From positions 744,001-808,000 of the forward strand of contig NW_020194555.1 of assembly GCF_002865645.1 (NCBI RefSeq): DNA of 64,000 nt, read 5' to 3'. Below the pieces are notes generated by a model that was given only the letters and a program-made list of their open reading frames with translations, made no database searches and had not been told where the DNA came from. The translations under genes and the position numbers were made by a program. Origin of the DNA: Hyaloscypha bicolor E (Eukaryota; Ascomycota; Leotiomycetes; Helotiales; Hyaloscyphaceae). This document shows, piece by piece, positions 45,815 to 55,475 of this stretch. Positions within the stretch are counted from its first letter, which is position 1. Each line of letters opens with the position of its first letter.

Positions 45815-46119
45815 AGCAGTTTGCCGCCCCCGATCCCTGTCGCGACCCCTGCGCCGATCCTTCATGAGGCGAAAGGACCCCCAGCAGGCGCACTAGAAGT
45901 GCTCCGTCTTTCTCCATACGTGAATCAACCAGTCTATTCGATTGGCTGGAACATATCATTTCCATGAAGGGTGGAGACCGGCTCAATGTCCTGCCGCACC
46001 GTGCTCCTTATAATGTTGACTTCCTCCTTCTGTTCCAGTCTTGGATTATTTTGTCTTGTTGTCCTCAGTTTTCCTCGAACTTTCAATCAGTTTTATTATA
46101 AATCCTGTCACACGCCACC

Positions 46120-47230
46120 ATGGTAGGTCAACCAAGAATACCTCCAACGCCTGCCAGGACGAGTATGGCAGGTCAAACGGTCATCGTCACGGGTGGAAAT
46201 TCAGGTTTAGGCTTCGAAACAGCTCGACAATTCCTGACTTTGCAAGCTTCCCGGGTCATAATTGCTGTGCGATCAGAGTCCAAAGGACAAGAAGCAATAT
46301 CTGCACTCCGTGCCGACCCTGCTGTGAAGGCTGCCAATCCTTCGGCGAAAGTTGAAGCCTTTCTTCTAGATCTTGAAGACTACCAGTCCGGATTACGGTT
46401 TGCTCAGAGAGTGAAGAAAGAGGTCCCTGAATTGCATGTTCTGCTGTGCAATGCTGGAATGAATATCTTGAGGTATGAAACCAGCAAGAGCGGCCACGAG
46501 ATGGTCATGCAAGGCAAGTCTCTCGCCACATTCTATCGCTGTCCTTAGATCTCTATCTCAGGAATTGTTAACTAACATTTAAGAAAACAGTCAACTGCTA
46601 CACCCATTTCTTCATTGCCCTTGAGTTACTTCCGCTTCTCCTAGCAACCGCGGTCAAGCGAGGAACACCATCCCACCTCTCCTTCATCGGTTCGGATATG
46701 CAATCCATGCATACCTTGGCCAACCGTCCGTTCACATCGCCGGAGACTCTACTAGGTCATTTTGACAATTTGAAAGCATATAACATGAAACGCTACGCGG
46801 ACTCCAAGCTGACTGCAAATGCATTCGCGCGCAAACTTGCAACTGTAGTCTCCTCCAATCATGTTATTGTTAACACTGTTTGTCCTGGAATAGTTGCAAC
46901 GGACCTCGAAAAAAGCCTTCCTGCCTGGGTTAAGGTCCCATACTTCTTTATCAGGGCGGTTTTAGCTAGGAAGGTGGATGAGGGTAGCCGGACTTTGGTC
47001 TATGCTAGTGTGATCGCAGGCCCAGAGACTCATGGAAGATACCTCAATCACAACAAGGTTGAAATGTAAGTCTAAGTATCTTCCCGGTGTTTATGATGGC
47101 CTCTAACATGGACACAAGTAATACACCGTTCCTGGATGAGAGTAAGGGCAAGCAATTTATTGAGAAGTTTTGGACGGAGATGGTGGAGGAGGGCAAGTCT
47201 CTGGACCCTGAGTTAGAGATCGCTGCTTAG
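46120..47230 (+). CDS. Short-chain dehydrogenase/reductase (intact)
   Basis: Three exons, join(46120..46513, 46591..47065, 47119..47230), 326 residues. The start has a perfect context (GCCACCATGG). The cofactor loop is TGGNSGLG near residue 25, NAG follows (CNAGMN), and the catalytic residues are in SFIGSD and YADSK (YxxxK). Length and order fit the WWOX/retinol-dehydrogenase-like fungal SDR group. These are NAD(P)-dependent oxidoreductases; the substrate is unknown. The first intron has a GC donor (CAAG/GCAAGT) with branch CTAAC and acceptor ACAG; the frame requires it. The second intron (53 bp) is GTAAGT...AAG with branch CTAAC. It lies between the regulator and a transporter, which suggests a role in the same small pathway. 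Confidence 0.9.
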
Positions 47231-47419: not shown

Positions 47420-49335
47420 TCATTTCTCTTGAGTAACAACTTGAGAGTCATCATCGGATCCGATCCGGCCCACGCCACTCTCAACTACGGCATTTGCCTT
47501 CTTATCCTGGTCGACAAAATATTTAATCACAAAGATCATCCCAAATTCACACACTCTGAGCACTGACATAACTGTAAAGCCCATCTTGAATTTCGGTGCA
47601 TATTTGCCAACGTTGAGTATAACAACTATTCAGAATGTTAGTAAGAGAAAGGGAAATGGCGAGAAGCAGTAGATACCTGGCACCCAGGCAATGAAAGCTT
47701 GCCCTAGTGTTTGAGCTACTCCGATCACGATGGCACGCTCCTCTGCATCATCGTGGCAGATCTCGTTGACCCAAGCATACAGCTATAAAACAATCAGCGA
47801 GACCCAGATGCCTTTGGACAGGGGGATTTACCACAGGCCAAAGGCCCCAAGTAGCAGCATTAATGAGGTACCCGAAGAATGTAGCACCATAACTAGCACC
47901 CGAGGCTACTGTTACCATACCGACGAAGTTGCACGTCTAGTTGATGATATGATGTTAGCGCGTTCCATAACTTGATGTGCGGATACCTACAGCAGGCACA
48001 ATCATAATTTGCCAGCGCTTTCCTCCAAGTCCATCAGATACCCATGCATACGCAAGGGTGGTCACAAGTCCAAGTGCCTGACCTGCTGTTGGGAACAGGT
48101 TGATCTGATACACACTGAACCGATTCAGAGACTTTAGCCGGACGGCGAAATAATTTAGAGGCTGAGTGACTAGGCAATGGAATCTGTCGACTCTGTCAGC
48201 AGTTCCCGAAACTATCACAGTCTGCAGTGGCTTACATCAACATCAGGGAAATGATGTATATAGGCCAGTGAGTCAAGGTTTTTCTAATTTTTGCCCGGGA
48301 CAGTGGAGCTGATGCCCGCCGATCTATGTTCTTCATTCGATCGATGTAAAGTTGCTTTGAATCCCCTGGCAGCCATCTTGCTCTGGTAGTGTATGGACTA
48401 TCGGGAATTGCATATAGACCCCAGATTGAGGTTGGCAAGGAGATGATTCCGCAGAATATGAAGAGCCATCTCCAGCCTGGAAGACCCAGGTGGTCGTCTA
48501 GCCCTTTGTATATACCTGCTTGAAGATATCCGCTGAACATGCTTGCTGCATAGCTTGCCGAGTAAAAGATTGCAATACGTTTTGCCAGTTCTGTGGAGTA
48601 TTAGCCAGAAAGTTTGATTGGGAGAGAAAAGGCTTTGAGGTCATTCGACTTACCCCTGGGTGTGTACCAACTGCCCATCAATGTTATGACGCCAACAGCA
48701 AAAGGACTTTCCAACATTCCAATGAGGAAGCGAAGTGCGAAGACTTGTTTTGTTGATTGGACAGCAGCGAAACAAAACGTAATAATTGTCCATAAAAATT
48801 CCACAGCTGGAAGGTAGTACGAAGGTCGGACTAGCGGTTCCAGGATTAGCAATCATTGTCACTTTTAAATTGATTTGGGATCTCATACATTTTGTTAACA
48901 GCAGTTGAGATGGAATTTGACCGACTAGGTATCCACAAGTGAAGAACGTAGTCAAGAGATTGTACTGGTTGCCATGTATGTTCAAGTCTTCTTTCATCCC
49001 GGAGATATACGCATTGGCTATATTGAGAGAGTCAGTAATCGATTTCCGAGCCGCATGGAGATGCGTACTGATATTTCCAGAGTCCAACAGTCGGGTGAAA
49101 TACCCATATGTTGCCCAAGTCCTGAATTTTTTTTGGAGAATATCAGTGTGATATTCTGTATTCCAAGGGTAAAGGGGAAAGTGAAGGGTGATCCTTACAT
49201 AAGGAAGATGTCAAGCCGTTGTACAAGTCTCTTCTCTGCTTCTGAGCGAGGGCCATCCCAGATGATTTCTTGGATCCTTGCCCATTTGCTTCTTCGATGT
49301 TGATCCCTCATATTGAGGCTAGGGTTTTCGTTCAT
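47420..49335 (-). CDS. MFS transporter, allantoate permease/DAL5-type (anion:cation symporter family)
   Basis: Nine exons on the minus strand, 486 residues: 49335..49199, 49121..49069, 49017..48889, 48830..48654, 48590..48236, 48183..47991, 47936..47832, 47782..47677, 47625..47420. All introns are 49-77 bp GT-AG and the total is a multiple of three. The sequence has the DAL5/pantothenate-permease pattern: [71 protein letters not shown], then [32 protein letters not shown] and [15 protein letters not shown]. It should be a 12-helix plasma-membrane importer of a small carboxylate, vitamin or nitrogen compound. It converges with the SDR, 3' ends about 190 bp apart. Confidence 0.9.
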
Positions 49336-50040: not shown

Positions 50041-52271
50041 TTACAAGCAGTTTCTGGGTGTGAAGTTGCAAGGGAACGGTACTGGATGACTGGAAACCAA
50101 TTTTGTTAGCCCTCCTAATATTAATAGCCGCTATGTTGATCATAATAACACAGATGTAGTCCCGAAGAAGCTTTAGATCATACCTAGTAATGCCGGTCGA
50201 GAACTCCATTTTGGGCATGATATCTTCCCCATCCTTATCCTTCGCCGGCGTGATATTGAATTTTGCAAGTATCGTTGCAACGACTATCCAGACACTGGCG
50301 AATGCGAGATATTGGCCTGGGCAGACTCTTTCCTCTTGTTAACAATCCCTTATTAAACCCATTACAAGAACTCTTACCTTCGACCAAACCCAAAATGACC
50401 CACGGGGATTGGCTCACCACCACCACTTTCTGAAACTGGTAGGAAACGATCTGGGTTGAATTTGAAAGGATCTTTGTAAATATCTGGATCGTGGAGCATT
50501 GCCCAGGCATTAGCTATCACCATCGAACTACAAACGGTAAGCAAGAAATTCCCATCCACTTGTCAATTACATACCCTAGAAATTAGTTAGCTCATGAATT
50601 CACCGTGGCGCGTGTCCTGCCAAACCCCAGGTATAACTTACCCTTTGGAATGTACATGTCACGATATACATCTTCTTTCAAAGTTTTGTGCGGAACCCCT
50701 ACCCGATTAGTTTGGCAAGTAAGTTCAAGATAAAGGCGGGATACAAGGCTAACCATTTGGAAGAGGGGGGTGTAATCTGTTAAGCTGTCAACTCCTTCCA
50801 TGAGATTATCTCTAGTCTCACCCACCTCAAAGTCTCGTAGACTATCCTCTCCACAATCGGTAACGTTTTCCAGTCGCTAAAAGTAGGCAGTCGTATCCCT
50901 CTAGTCGCAGCATCGATCTCTTTCTGCGCCCGAATCTGCACGTCGGGGGTTAGTACCATTGCCATAACAAATATCGTCTCAGCCGAGTAAGTTGTTTCCT
51001 GTCCGGCTGAGTACAACGATCCACCAGTCCCCCTGAGTTCGCCATCTGTGAAGCTCTTAATATCATCTTCTTCCTCCTCCTCCTCCTCCTCCTCGCCCGC
51101 GTCGTGCGTTTCTCTTGCCTCGATCAAGCGTCCCAAGAATGACGGCTCCATTGTTCCAGCTTTCTGTAACACATGAGATACACTCTAGCCTGTGATTCAC
51201 CTGGCCAACTTACGAAACTTCTCATCACTGCGTCGAACGGTCGCTGGTGGAGTTCCTCAATGGCAGGGGTATGATCGTGGACGTACTTAACGGAAGGAAT
51301 GAACTTCCCCACCCAGCGTGGGATATGCTCGACTGTAGTAACGGGACTCGTTAGCCTGCACTTCTGATCGAAAGCCACAGTGAGATTTTACTTACCCCAG
51401 GGCGCGATATCCAAAATAGTGATCCCATTATTTCCCATATTGCCGACAATCCACCCCATCTTATCCGCTAATTTGAAATAAGGATCATCCTCATCTACAA
51501 CGTCAATGGCAAAAGCTACACTGAAGATTACTCGAGTCGCGAATCTAGGAAAGTGATTAATTGCCTGTGCCACGGAATTTTATTCACGGAACCGCACCTT
51601 GAGAGGTAACTTTGCCACTTCTCTGGGCATTTCTCAATTTCGTCTGCCATCTCGCGAGCATGCTTCAGTTGGGCATCTCGATACCCCAAGCTGCTACGTG
51701 CGGAGAGAAAACTACCGTATGGTTTCCGGAGCTTGCGGAATTGGGCACCATCACGAATAAGGGCCACGTTATTCTTAAAACCGAGGCTAGAAATACTAAT
51801 TAGCAGGCTTTTTTGATTTTTGAAAGAGGGGCAGGTATTGCAATACGCTTCCAGCAGGACAAAACGCGGTCTATCACTGTAAATTGCCCCTTTTTTGTCA
51901 AGGAGATCAACAGCCGATTTCACGCTGTTTAGGACGATGACTGGTTGTCCGAGGAGATTGACATAGATGATGTCGGACTCTGGATATGCATTAGAAATAA
52001 CGTGCTTCGCTGCCAAGGCCAAATCTAAGACTTGAACGAACTCACTGAATTCTTTGGACCATTTTGCGAACTGTAAATCCGATCTCTCCGCTGGCACCTG
52101 TCGAAGATTGCCAATGATGGGAGATCCTTTAGGTCCTGGTGGGACCGGATACTTCGACCTTGAACCTTGCGAGTACAAACCCACGGCGAGCAATATCACC
52201 ACACCTCCTGCTACGACGGCCAAAACCCAGCTGCCATTTCGGTTGAGAAGGGCCTCGGCAGATGAGTTCAT
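50041..52271 (-). CDS. Cytochrome P450 monooxygenase, 12 exons including a one-nucleotide exon
   Basis: Minus-strand exons 52271..52046, 51979..51847, 51786..51598, 51544..51396, 51332..51214, 51163..50826, 50776..50754, 50698..50642, 50575, 50527..50378, 50327..50184 and 50089..50041 total 1578 nt, 525 residues. An N-terminal membrane anchor (WVLAVVAGGVVILLAVG) is followed by PPGPKGSPIIGN. The oxygen-binding helix reads SAGQETT, the K helix ETLR, then LHPPLPNGVPHKT. The heme loop FGFGRR continues across an intron as VCPGQ (Cys about residue 464). It should be an ER-anchored haem monooxygenase of the group often annotated as O-methylsterigmatocystin oxidoreductase-like; substrate unknown. An acidic run from a GAG repeat (51066-51094) extends the loop before the I helix. 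The frame around IPKG needs the one-base exon at 50575. Confidence 0.85.
50528..50641 (-). other. Two adjacent introns separated by one nucleotide in the P450 gene
   Basis: Minus-strand intron 50641..50576 runs GTAAGT...GCTAAC...CTAG. A single G (50575) follows, then intron 50574..50528, GTATGT...CTTAC...GTAG. The G completes a GGT glycine codon, giving the family-typical IPKGSMVIANAW. Without it the total coding length is not a multiple of three. No single GT-AG intron I could find keeps the frame here. It could be spliced as a microexon or as a stwintron-like nested pair. Confidence 0.7.
51066..51094. repeat. (CTC)n/(GAG)n microsatellite inside the P450 coding region
   Basis: Tandem triplets encode a run of nine glutamates followed by DD. 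The position is a surface loop before the I helix, where length changes in threes would be tolerated. Confidence 0.85.
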
Positions 52272-53356: not shown

Positions 53357-55475
53357 TCAAACCACCCTCACGGTCATTAGCTCACAGCCTTCTTCCCACT
53401 CGTCTGTTGTGTACCCGGCGGACCGCAGATATCCTACGCGCTTGTACGAATCACCACATTTCACCAGTACCAACCCCATTGGGGTATCGCGATGAGAGTT
53501 CTCTGTCACCGACGAAGTAATCATTAAAAAGCAGTCCTGACGATCGGAAACCTCCGGATGGCCGTCTGTGATATCCGGGTGGAAGGTGTCATATGGACAT
53601 GCCGTGCGGCCCTTTAATGCCTTCCTGCTCGCAATGATATATGCTGGCTGGTTTTGGTGGTCCACCATGACGACCTTGGAAGGCACCATCAAGCACATGG
53701 CGATGAAACTTCCCGAGCCAGGTCCAAACTTATTCTTCGTTGAGGGCTCAACAATAATTTCCAGGATTTTGAAGAAGCGGTCCTGCTCGAAACCGTTCCC
53801 TTTGACTTGTTTCTCATACTCGATGGGACCTGTGATGGAAGCCCAAGACCAACTAGGAGCGTATTCTTCTTCACGACGACTGTGAGTAGAGACAGTACCG
53901 GAAGACCAGTGCTCGGCGCTTCGCCAGTGGAGATCTCGATGGAATGTCTTCTTCCACAGTCCAAAGATGTAAGCCGGAGTATCTATCTTAGATTCCCAGT
54001 AGATCTCCTCCCAATTTGTCCCCGCGAGGCCGGAGAGTGCTGGTAGTCGATCGGACTGCTTTGTGAGTTGAAGTTTAGTGTACTGCTCCACAATCTCCAA
54101 CCATCGTGGGAGGAGATTCGGTGACCTAAATCGTTGAGCCAAAGCTTAATCATGAAAAAGTGATTGTTTTAGTTGGTTGGCATACCTGAAACCCGTCTTT
54201 GTGTCTGCAGCTTCCTCTATGAACTCTCTCTTGAAGTTCGTTGCGTGCGCAGATGTATCCATCCCGACTCTGCATTCACATTGTAGCCCGGCTCTGCATT
54301 CGAAGACAAGTTCAGATCCCGTGTAATGCAATGTTCGCTGCGACAGCAACCGTTCTTGAAATACCCACCCTCGCGTACTCAGTCTGCTAGGAAGCGGTTT
54401 GACCTTATTCCCCTTCGCGATATGGGCGAGGCCTTCGTCGCGATTTGGTTCTCGGAAGCCCGAAAGACGAACGTGAACGTTGCTTTCCACACCATCCTTA
54501 TTCGTTCCCCGAATTGAGGAGTACTCGTGTTGCCGACTCGCTCCAGTAACAAAACAGCCTCCATTGGAGTCGCCAGATCCATGGGCAGCAATGGTGAATG
54601 CTGCGTTTCTGTAGACGGCGCTCATTTTCCCAGCCTCTGCTTGCCAGTCTTCCTCCGAATCCTGAATTATGCAGAGAGAATCGATCCAGAGATATCTGAC
54701 ATTAAGCGTGCTCGCGATCTTCACAGCATCGCGGAATGTCTTTGGTAAATCTGAGATAATAATGGGACCCCCTTTCAAGTCCTCATAGTTGGCTTTCATC
54801 AACCGAGTGGGCACCACTAGTCCCCAACAATGGCTTAGAGCGGCATAGTGGCCTTTCTCGTAGCTCTCAGGTTCACAGAGTGTCGCATATTCATCGTTCA
54901 AGAGCTCCAGGACACGAGTTGGGAGAGGAAGGTCTTCGTAGCCCCCACAGCAATTGTGTTTGAAAACGCAGTTGAATAGCCAGTCTTGGGCCAGTTTGAA
55001 ACATTTTTCTGATGATGAATCCGGCGAGATGTGCCTTGCTCTTCCAATGACAGACCAGGCCGGTGACGCTTTGGGGCTATGGTCCACGAAGCTGTTCTTT
55101 TGATCCTCATGTTCGGCTATTTTAGAAGTGTCAGTACCTCAGCTGAACAAGCACCTCCGTTTCGGATTGCTCACGAGCCCAATAGAATTCAAGCTCTTGC
55201 TTCAAAACGCCTTCTGTCCAAAGGTTCACGTTCAGGGGCTCGGTTTTGCCAAATGACCACAGCACAACTTTCTCAATTTCTTGGATTTCTTGTTCTCGCG
55301 TTAGGATGCCTCTCAGCAGCATGCCACAGGTACTGCATCCTGCTTGTGCGGTTTGTTTGAGGTTGGCGAAAGGGATCTCTCGATGTCCCAAGGTATCACT
55401 GACGTAATCAAGAACAAGGTCGCTGCAAGAGCAGCACACCTCCGTGGTCGAGGTTTCCGATGACGCTTCAGCCAT
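53357..55475 (-). CDS. HET-domain (heterokaryon incompatibility) protein, three exons
   Basis: complement(join(53357..54125, 54186..55091, 55138..55475)), 670 residues; both introns (60 and 46 bp) are GT-AG and frame is kept. The start at 55475 (MAEASSETSTTEVCCSC) is followed by a Cys-containing N-terminal segment (CCSC, then QAGCSTCGMLLRGI) usual for this HET subgroup. The HET domain follows at about residues 195-340: HYAALSHCWG, LRYLWIDSLCIIQDSEEDW, MSAVYRNAAFTIAA, then RGWVFQERLLSQRTLHY. The C-terminal part contains YAPSWSWASITGPI, also typical. These proteins act in non-self recognition and cell death in fungi. Unlike the first HET protein of the window it is complete. A transposon begins about 225 bp upstream of the start codon. 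Confidence 0.88.

Follow-up and report, generated by a model that had tools for sequence, protein, structure and literature searches.

Can a single nucleotide serve as an exon in a fungal gene, and did such exons arise once or repeatedly at the same base? Both questions are raised by a cytochrome P450 gene of Hyaloscypha bicolor E in which two short introns are separated by one G. The gene lies in a stretch of 64,000 nt (contig NW_020194555.1, positions 744,001 to 808,000; hereafter the window, with coordinates counted from its first letter). Its coding strand is the minus strand (52271-50041), a detail that a preliminary description of the locus did not give, and its exons measure, from 1 to 12, 226, 133, 189, 149, 119, 338, 23, 57, 1, 150, 144 and 49 nt. 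All 11 introns of the model are GT-AG and range from 47 to 94 nt. The product belongs to the P450s by a near-full-length PF00067 match (residues 44-512, E 1.4e-72), together with a heme motif (FGFGRRVCPGQ) and an EXXR motif (ETLR), both recognized by eye. The features at issue are as follows.

50041..52271, minus strand: cytochrome P450 gene, 12 exons, 525 amino acids (gene model, Pfam and homologues)
50642..50698, minus strand: exon 8, 57 nt, ending CCA AAG G (phase 1)
50576..50641, minus strand: intron 8, 66 nt, GTAAGT...GCTAACTAATTTCTAG (ending TTTCTAG)
50575..50575, minus strand: exon 9, one G, the second position of the glycine codon in IPKGS
50528..50574, minus strand: intron 9, 47 nt, GTATGT...GCTTACCGTTTGTAG (ending TTTGTAG), phase 2
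50378..50527, minus strand: exon 10, 150 nt, starting T TCG ATG GTG

Reading the sequence bore out the coordinates (50528..50641), lengths and splice sites that the preliminary description gave for the two introns, along with the branch-like motif it assigned to each (CTAAC in intron 8 and CTTAC in intron 9, with the A 9 and 8 bases ahead of the AG, respectively). Exons 8 and 10 are 114 nt apart in total (66 + 1 + 47), and at 50575 an AG and a GT flank one base, with a complete intron on either side. Joining exons 8, 9 and 10 gives CCA AAG G/G/T TCG, which reads PKGS; the G completes the glycine codon of IPKGS, as had been described, and the 12-exon coding sequence (1578 nt including the stop) is divisible by three only when this base is counted, also as described. 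The G is thus needed for both the frame and a conserved motif. With the one-base exon the expected exon 8/exon 10 junction is CCAAAGGGTTCG; a 110-nt intron giving PKGNS would leave CCAAAGGGTAATTCG, and a further junction that would count against the one-base exon is CCAAAGGTTCG.

We enumerated splice choices from GACATG to ATAGCT with introns of at least 35 nt, trying single introns (GT-AG, GC-AG and AT-AC) as well as consecutive and nested GT-AG pairs. Twelve single-intron parses were in frame and none of the 12 yielded IPKGS; the closest in-frame one was a 110-nt intron with donor GTTATA and acceptor TTGTAG, which yields IPKGNS. Consecutive pairs offered four in-frame parses, and the only one of these (1/4) to yield IPKGS was that with the one-base exon. 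No nested pair produced IPKGS and four produced IPKGNS via donor GTTATA, in an enumeration that reported just products containing IPKGS or IPKGN. Retention of intron 8 or intron 9 leads to a stop codon, and excision of the whole 114 nt, with the G skipped, gives IPKVRW-stop, so inclusion of the one base alone would keep the enzyme.

Chance was gauged with 20,000 dinucleotide shuffles of the 114 nt, with the first 6 and last 3 bases fixed. A bare AG-N-GT with at least 40 nt per side appeared in 7.6% of shuffles, falling to 0.2% with a GTRNGT donor and 0.09% with YAG added; no shuffle (0/20,000) remained when CTNAY was also demanded in both halves. Across the 82 Mb of the genome, the pattern AAGGGTRNGT-N35-65-YAGGGTRNGT has a single match, at this site. 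Since its reversed control occurs twice, the splice pattern alone is not significant genome-wide; by itself it proves nothing, and the case therefore rests on coding context.

The frame, the motif, the splice signals and the breakage of orthologous gene models (below) together support a one-base exon at 50575 whose splicing we infer, and we consider it highly likely that this G is a genuine, sequentially spliced exon. Introns 8 and 9 would be removed one after the other, in either order, by intron definition, which fits because both are short and each has a full set of signals (donor, branch-like motif and acceptor). Intron definition is also the mode that Guo and Liu prefer for the one-base exon of APC11 (PMC4674806). 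Judging from exon size, the spliceosome could not assemble on both introns at once across a single base, and removal would therefore be sequential. If intron 8 leaves first, the donor becomes AAGGG/GTATGT, and if intron 9 leaves first, the acceptor becomes CTAG/GTTCG; usable splice sites would remain whichever goes first.

Several known systems resemble this arrangement. One-base exons have been described in plants, in APC11 (PMC4674806) and VPS55 (PMC8831610); as in the window gene, one base lies between ordinary introns and was missed by annotation, whereas the plant genes are unrelated and the APC11 exon is an A. The statement in the preliminary description that single-base exons are extremely rare thus needs qualifying, given these two plant genes and Fusarium CYP621A (below). 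Recursive splicing at zero-length exons, as mentioned in PMC4674806, likewise has an acceptor followed closely by a donor and stepwise removal, but in the window gene one base is kept in the predicted mRNA and the introns are short. Stwintrons, as described in PMC9024468, likewise bring together two short U2 introns between the same two exons, and these are removed consecutively; they are nested, however, and overlap at a G in the [D1,2]/[A2,3] types, whereas the window introns are separate and flank one exonic base.

The closest homologue of the window protein is from Hyaloscypha finlandica (88%), followed by Acephala (80%) and Stipitochalara (74%), with Xylogone (68%), Chlorociboria (68%) and Bisporella (56%) also near. 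We take these nearest proteins to be helotialean, the order being assumed for some of the genera. Three orthologues (P0002, P0005 and P0008) are open reading frames of 512-518 aa whose longest contigs are 1.6-2.0 kb; they are probably assembled RNA, because contigs of this size could not accommodate the gene with introns like these, and all three read PKGS at normal length. An indel within five residues of the site occurs in five of nine genome-derived helotialean models versus 11 of 78 at nine other intron sites (Fisher p 0.009), and in none of the three short-contig proteins, in a table whose rows (these 9 and 3, 40 Hypocreales/Microascales, 9 Colletotrichum and 21 other relatives) were hand-selected from 317 proteins listed in three homologue searches.

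The broken models read IPKGNS (P0001 and P0004) or IPKSNS (P0009), or carry an insertion (P0010) or a deletion (P0014). P0001 is from H. finlandica and P0004 from Stipitochalara longipes, and both show exactly the product of the 110-nt intron here; since the window sequence would drive an automatic gene finder to IPKGNS, these two genes very probably share its frame gap. Both models contain errors elsewhere as well, which makes poor annotation a confounder. The four genome-derived models without an indel are P0003, P0006, P0007 and P0011, and at PKG the first two read PKS and PKR. P0003, P0006 and P0009 have, in place of the glycine, serine or arginine, residues whose codons can keep the middle G, as if just the exon 8 base had changed. 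Viral contigs scanned for relatives of P0001 yielded no match.

These comparisons bear on three other readings of the locus. A single 110-nt intron, with an extra residue (IPKGNSMV) and no one-base exon, would be in frame and stop-free, and the H. finlandica and S. longipes models carry just its product; its donor, however, lacks G at +5 and lies four bases past an intact GTAAGT. The insertion is absent from the three transcript-like orthologues, from all 9 Colletotrichum proteins and from all 21 other relatives. Among 108 proteins listed outside the helotialean clade, three have an indel at the site (P0023, P0092 and P0110), one of them a one-residue insertion (P0023) and two of them deletions, and the PKG-PERF distance is said to be nearly invariant (PMC12940212). 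We regard the 110-nt intron as improbable. A one-base frame gap is likewise what a mistake in sequencing or assembly, or decay of the gene, would look like; exon 8 or exon 10 would then lack a base, and the one-base exon would be a chance resemblance. The remainder of the P450 gene is intact, however, the IPKGNS in models from two other species implies an identical gap in those genes, and the splice signals are better than in shuffles, all of which make error or decay very improbable in our view.

That the two short introns almost touch recalls a stwintron, in which the internal intron lies within a splicing signal (donor, branch point or acceptor) of the external one and is the first to leave, a structure documented in filamentous ascomycetes. 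In the enumeration above, though, nesting never restored the motif; [D1,2] constituents overlap at a G (AGT), whereas the window junction is AG/G/GT; and introns 8 and 9 are dissimilar (p 0.48). A stwintron therefore seems scarcely credible here, which supports the preliminary description in favouring a true one-base exon over nested introns.

As a kind, the one-base exon is already published: Nelson and Syed (PMC12940212, February 2026) reported, with support from RNA reads, that CYP621A of Fusarium has a one-nucleotide exon at the identical position of the codon. Both exons lie in a fungal P450, share an AG-G-GT core at the central base of the PKG glycine codon, and have a phase-1 boundary upstream and a phase-2 boundary downstream. 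The gap between the outer exons differs (114 nt in the window gene versus 139 nt in F. graminearum CYP621A), and so do the hosts: the window gene belongs to another clade, in Helotiales, and its exon is predicted from DNA, whereas CYP621A is from Hypocreales. With a Fusarium vanettenii protein taken as CYP621A, the window protein shares 36% identity; this value, with the topology tests below, places the host gene outside CYP621A. In the titles and abstract beginnings of the open literature that we searched, one-base exons were not described for any helotialean fungus. What is new is thus the host gene, which belongs to a helotialean P450 clade and appears to have acquired its exon at that base independently.

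Fusarium and other Hypocreales/Microascales relatives were found by a profile of P0046 and P0092, a search from a Collybia protein labelled CYP621A2 having returned none named Fusarium among at least 120 matches listed. The 40 rows used are P0092, P0239-P0245, P0247-P0249, P0251-P0273, P0284, P0291, P0306, P0310, P0311 and P0316. We infer that the Fusarium proteins are CYP621A and close kin because of their breakage at PKG and an overlap of species with PMC12940212 (F. vanettenii 77-13-4, F. oxysporum, F. pseudograminearum, F. venenatum, F. redolens and F. mangiferae). Indels at PKG occur in 38 of the 40 models (the exceptions being P0239 and P0255), compared with 86/356 for the remaining intron sites (p 3e-19), and 8 of the 38 have no residues at all at IPK, i.e., a lost exon. 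The intron 5 site is also often uneven (25/40 Hypocreales/Microascales and 11/21 other relatives), which may reflect natural length variation or annotation. Models with PKG indels include those of Thelonectria, Mariannaea, Neonectria, Stachybotrys, Paramyrothecium and Lomentospora; because such indels extend to these genera, our data suggest that the published CYP621A exon predates Fusarium.

Whether the helotialean and Fusarium-type exons share one origin was considered on a 66-row tree (the window protein, its own-genome paralogue L011, 12 helotialean proteins, 17 of the 40 Hypocreales/Microascales, 4 of the 9 Colletotrichum, 20 others and 11 outer rows), made by a quick search with the PKG columns left out and with long rows, including P0057, flagged. 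The 13 rows of the helotialean clade (support 100) join L011 and P0057 (98), while the Fusarium-type rows and Colletotrichum (99) fall inside a separate 44-row clade (99), with Lomentospora outside the former grouping (support 89). P0092 is a member of the Fusarium-type clade. An AU test rejected the helotialean and Fusarium-type rows as one clade, with or without Colletotrichum (p-AU 0.00013 and 0.00018, for groups chosen after the data were seen), and the annotated indel, treated as a trait, requires at least seven changes. P0023 (from Plicaturopsis crispa, with one extra residue, PKGAS) and P0110 (from Lachnellula subtilissima, with a deletion) lie outside both clades; their indels are possible further one-base exons or plain model errors.

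The paralogue L011, the closest from the same genome in the tree, has at the DNA level a single phase-2 intron in the same glycine codon (CCA AAA GG/GTAAGG...CGCAG/A TCT) and no separate intron of the phase of intron 8; intron 9 is phase 2 like the L011 intron, and the positions of introns 6, 10 and 11 are common to both genes (by eye). In four further own-genome paralogues, L010, L012, L018 and L026, the IPKGS frames are uninterrupted. Because L011 has a single phase-2 intron in the codon, the intron position in phase 2 is probably the old one, and the boundary in phase 1 is probably a derived state. When the two genes are lined up at the donor, the window gene (CCA AAG G/GTAAGT) is one base shorter than L011 and retains the lysine codon. 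An ancestral phase-2 intron in the glycine codon, as in L011, may thus have lost one base just ahead of its donor (GG/GTAAGG to G/GTAAGT), after which the frame would have been rescued by use of an AG-G-GT within the intron. This conjectured history fits the route of Nelson and Syed (PMC12940212), in which a splice-boundary base is lost in a change-intolerant motif and a G from the intron provides rescue. Alternatively, an entire new intron may have been inserted one base upstream. Given the dissimilarity noted above, it is unlikely that one of the two introns was duplicated into the other.

On balance we lean towards at least two independent origins of one-base exons at the same glycine-codon base, in two P450 lineages of different orders, since an old phase-2 intron in an indel-intolerant motif would force a one-G rescue of any one-base donor loss; such a repeatable trap would lead one to expect more cases in fungal P450s. 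Inheritance in common with Fusarium CYP621A, followed by many losses in between, would account for the identical codon base and AG-G-GT core, and lineages free of indels may hold the exon in correct models. Colletotrichum is an example: it sits among the Fusarium-type rows with no indel in any of nine proteins, and may have lost the exon or be correctly modelled, so absence of an indel is no proof of an absent exon. Set against common descent are the AU rejection of one clade, the mostly indel-free relatives in between and the single intron in L011 DNA. Common descent is possible but strikes us as rather unlikely, and two origins are the simpler reading.

If two origins are correct, the Fusarium CYP621A exon was no single accident, as a second P450 lineage in another fungal order would have arrived at the same outcome at that base; the origin of one-base exons also becomes testable by comparison of the one-intron paralogue with two-intron orthologues. 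A real exon at this base would further explain the recurrent PKG-motif annotation error in helotialean and hypocrealean P450 models.

Other observations concern the gene and its surroundings. Exon 6 (50826-51163, minus strand) encodes a run of nine glutamates, where orthologues have shorter, mixed acidic stretches. The P450 gene is adjoined by a HET (heterokaryon incompatibility) domain protein (54146-55138, minus strand; PF06985, E 4.6e-31), and near it, at 46102-47069 (plus strand) and 48232-48600 (minus strand), are short-chain dehydrogenase fragments together with a weak major facilitator match (E 2.4e-6, under the curated cut-off).
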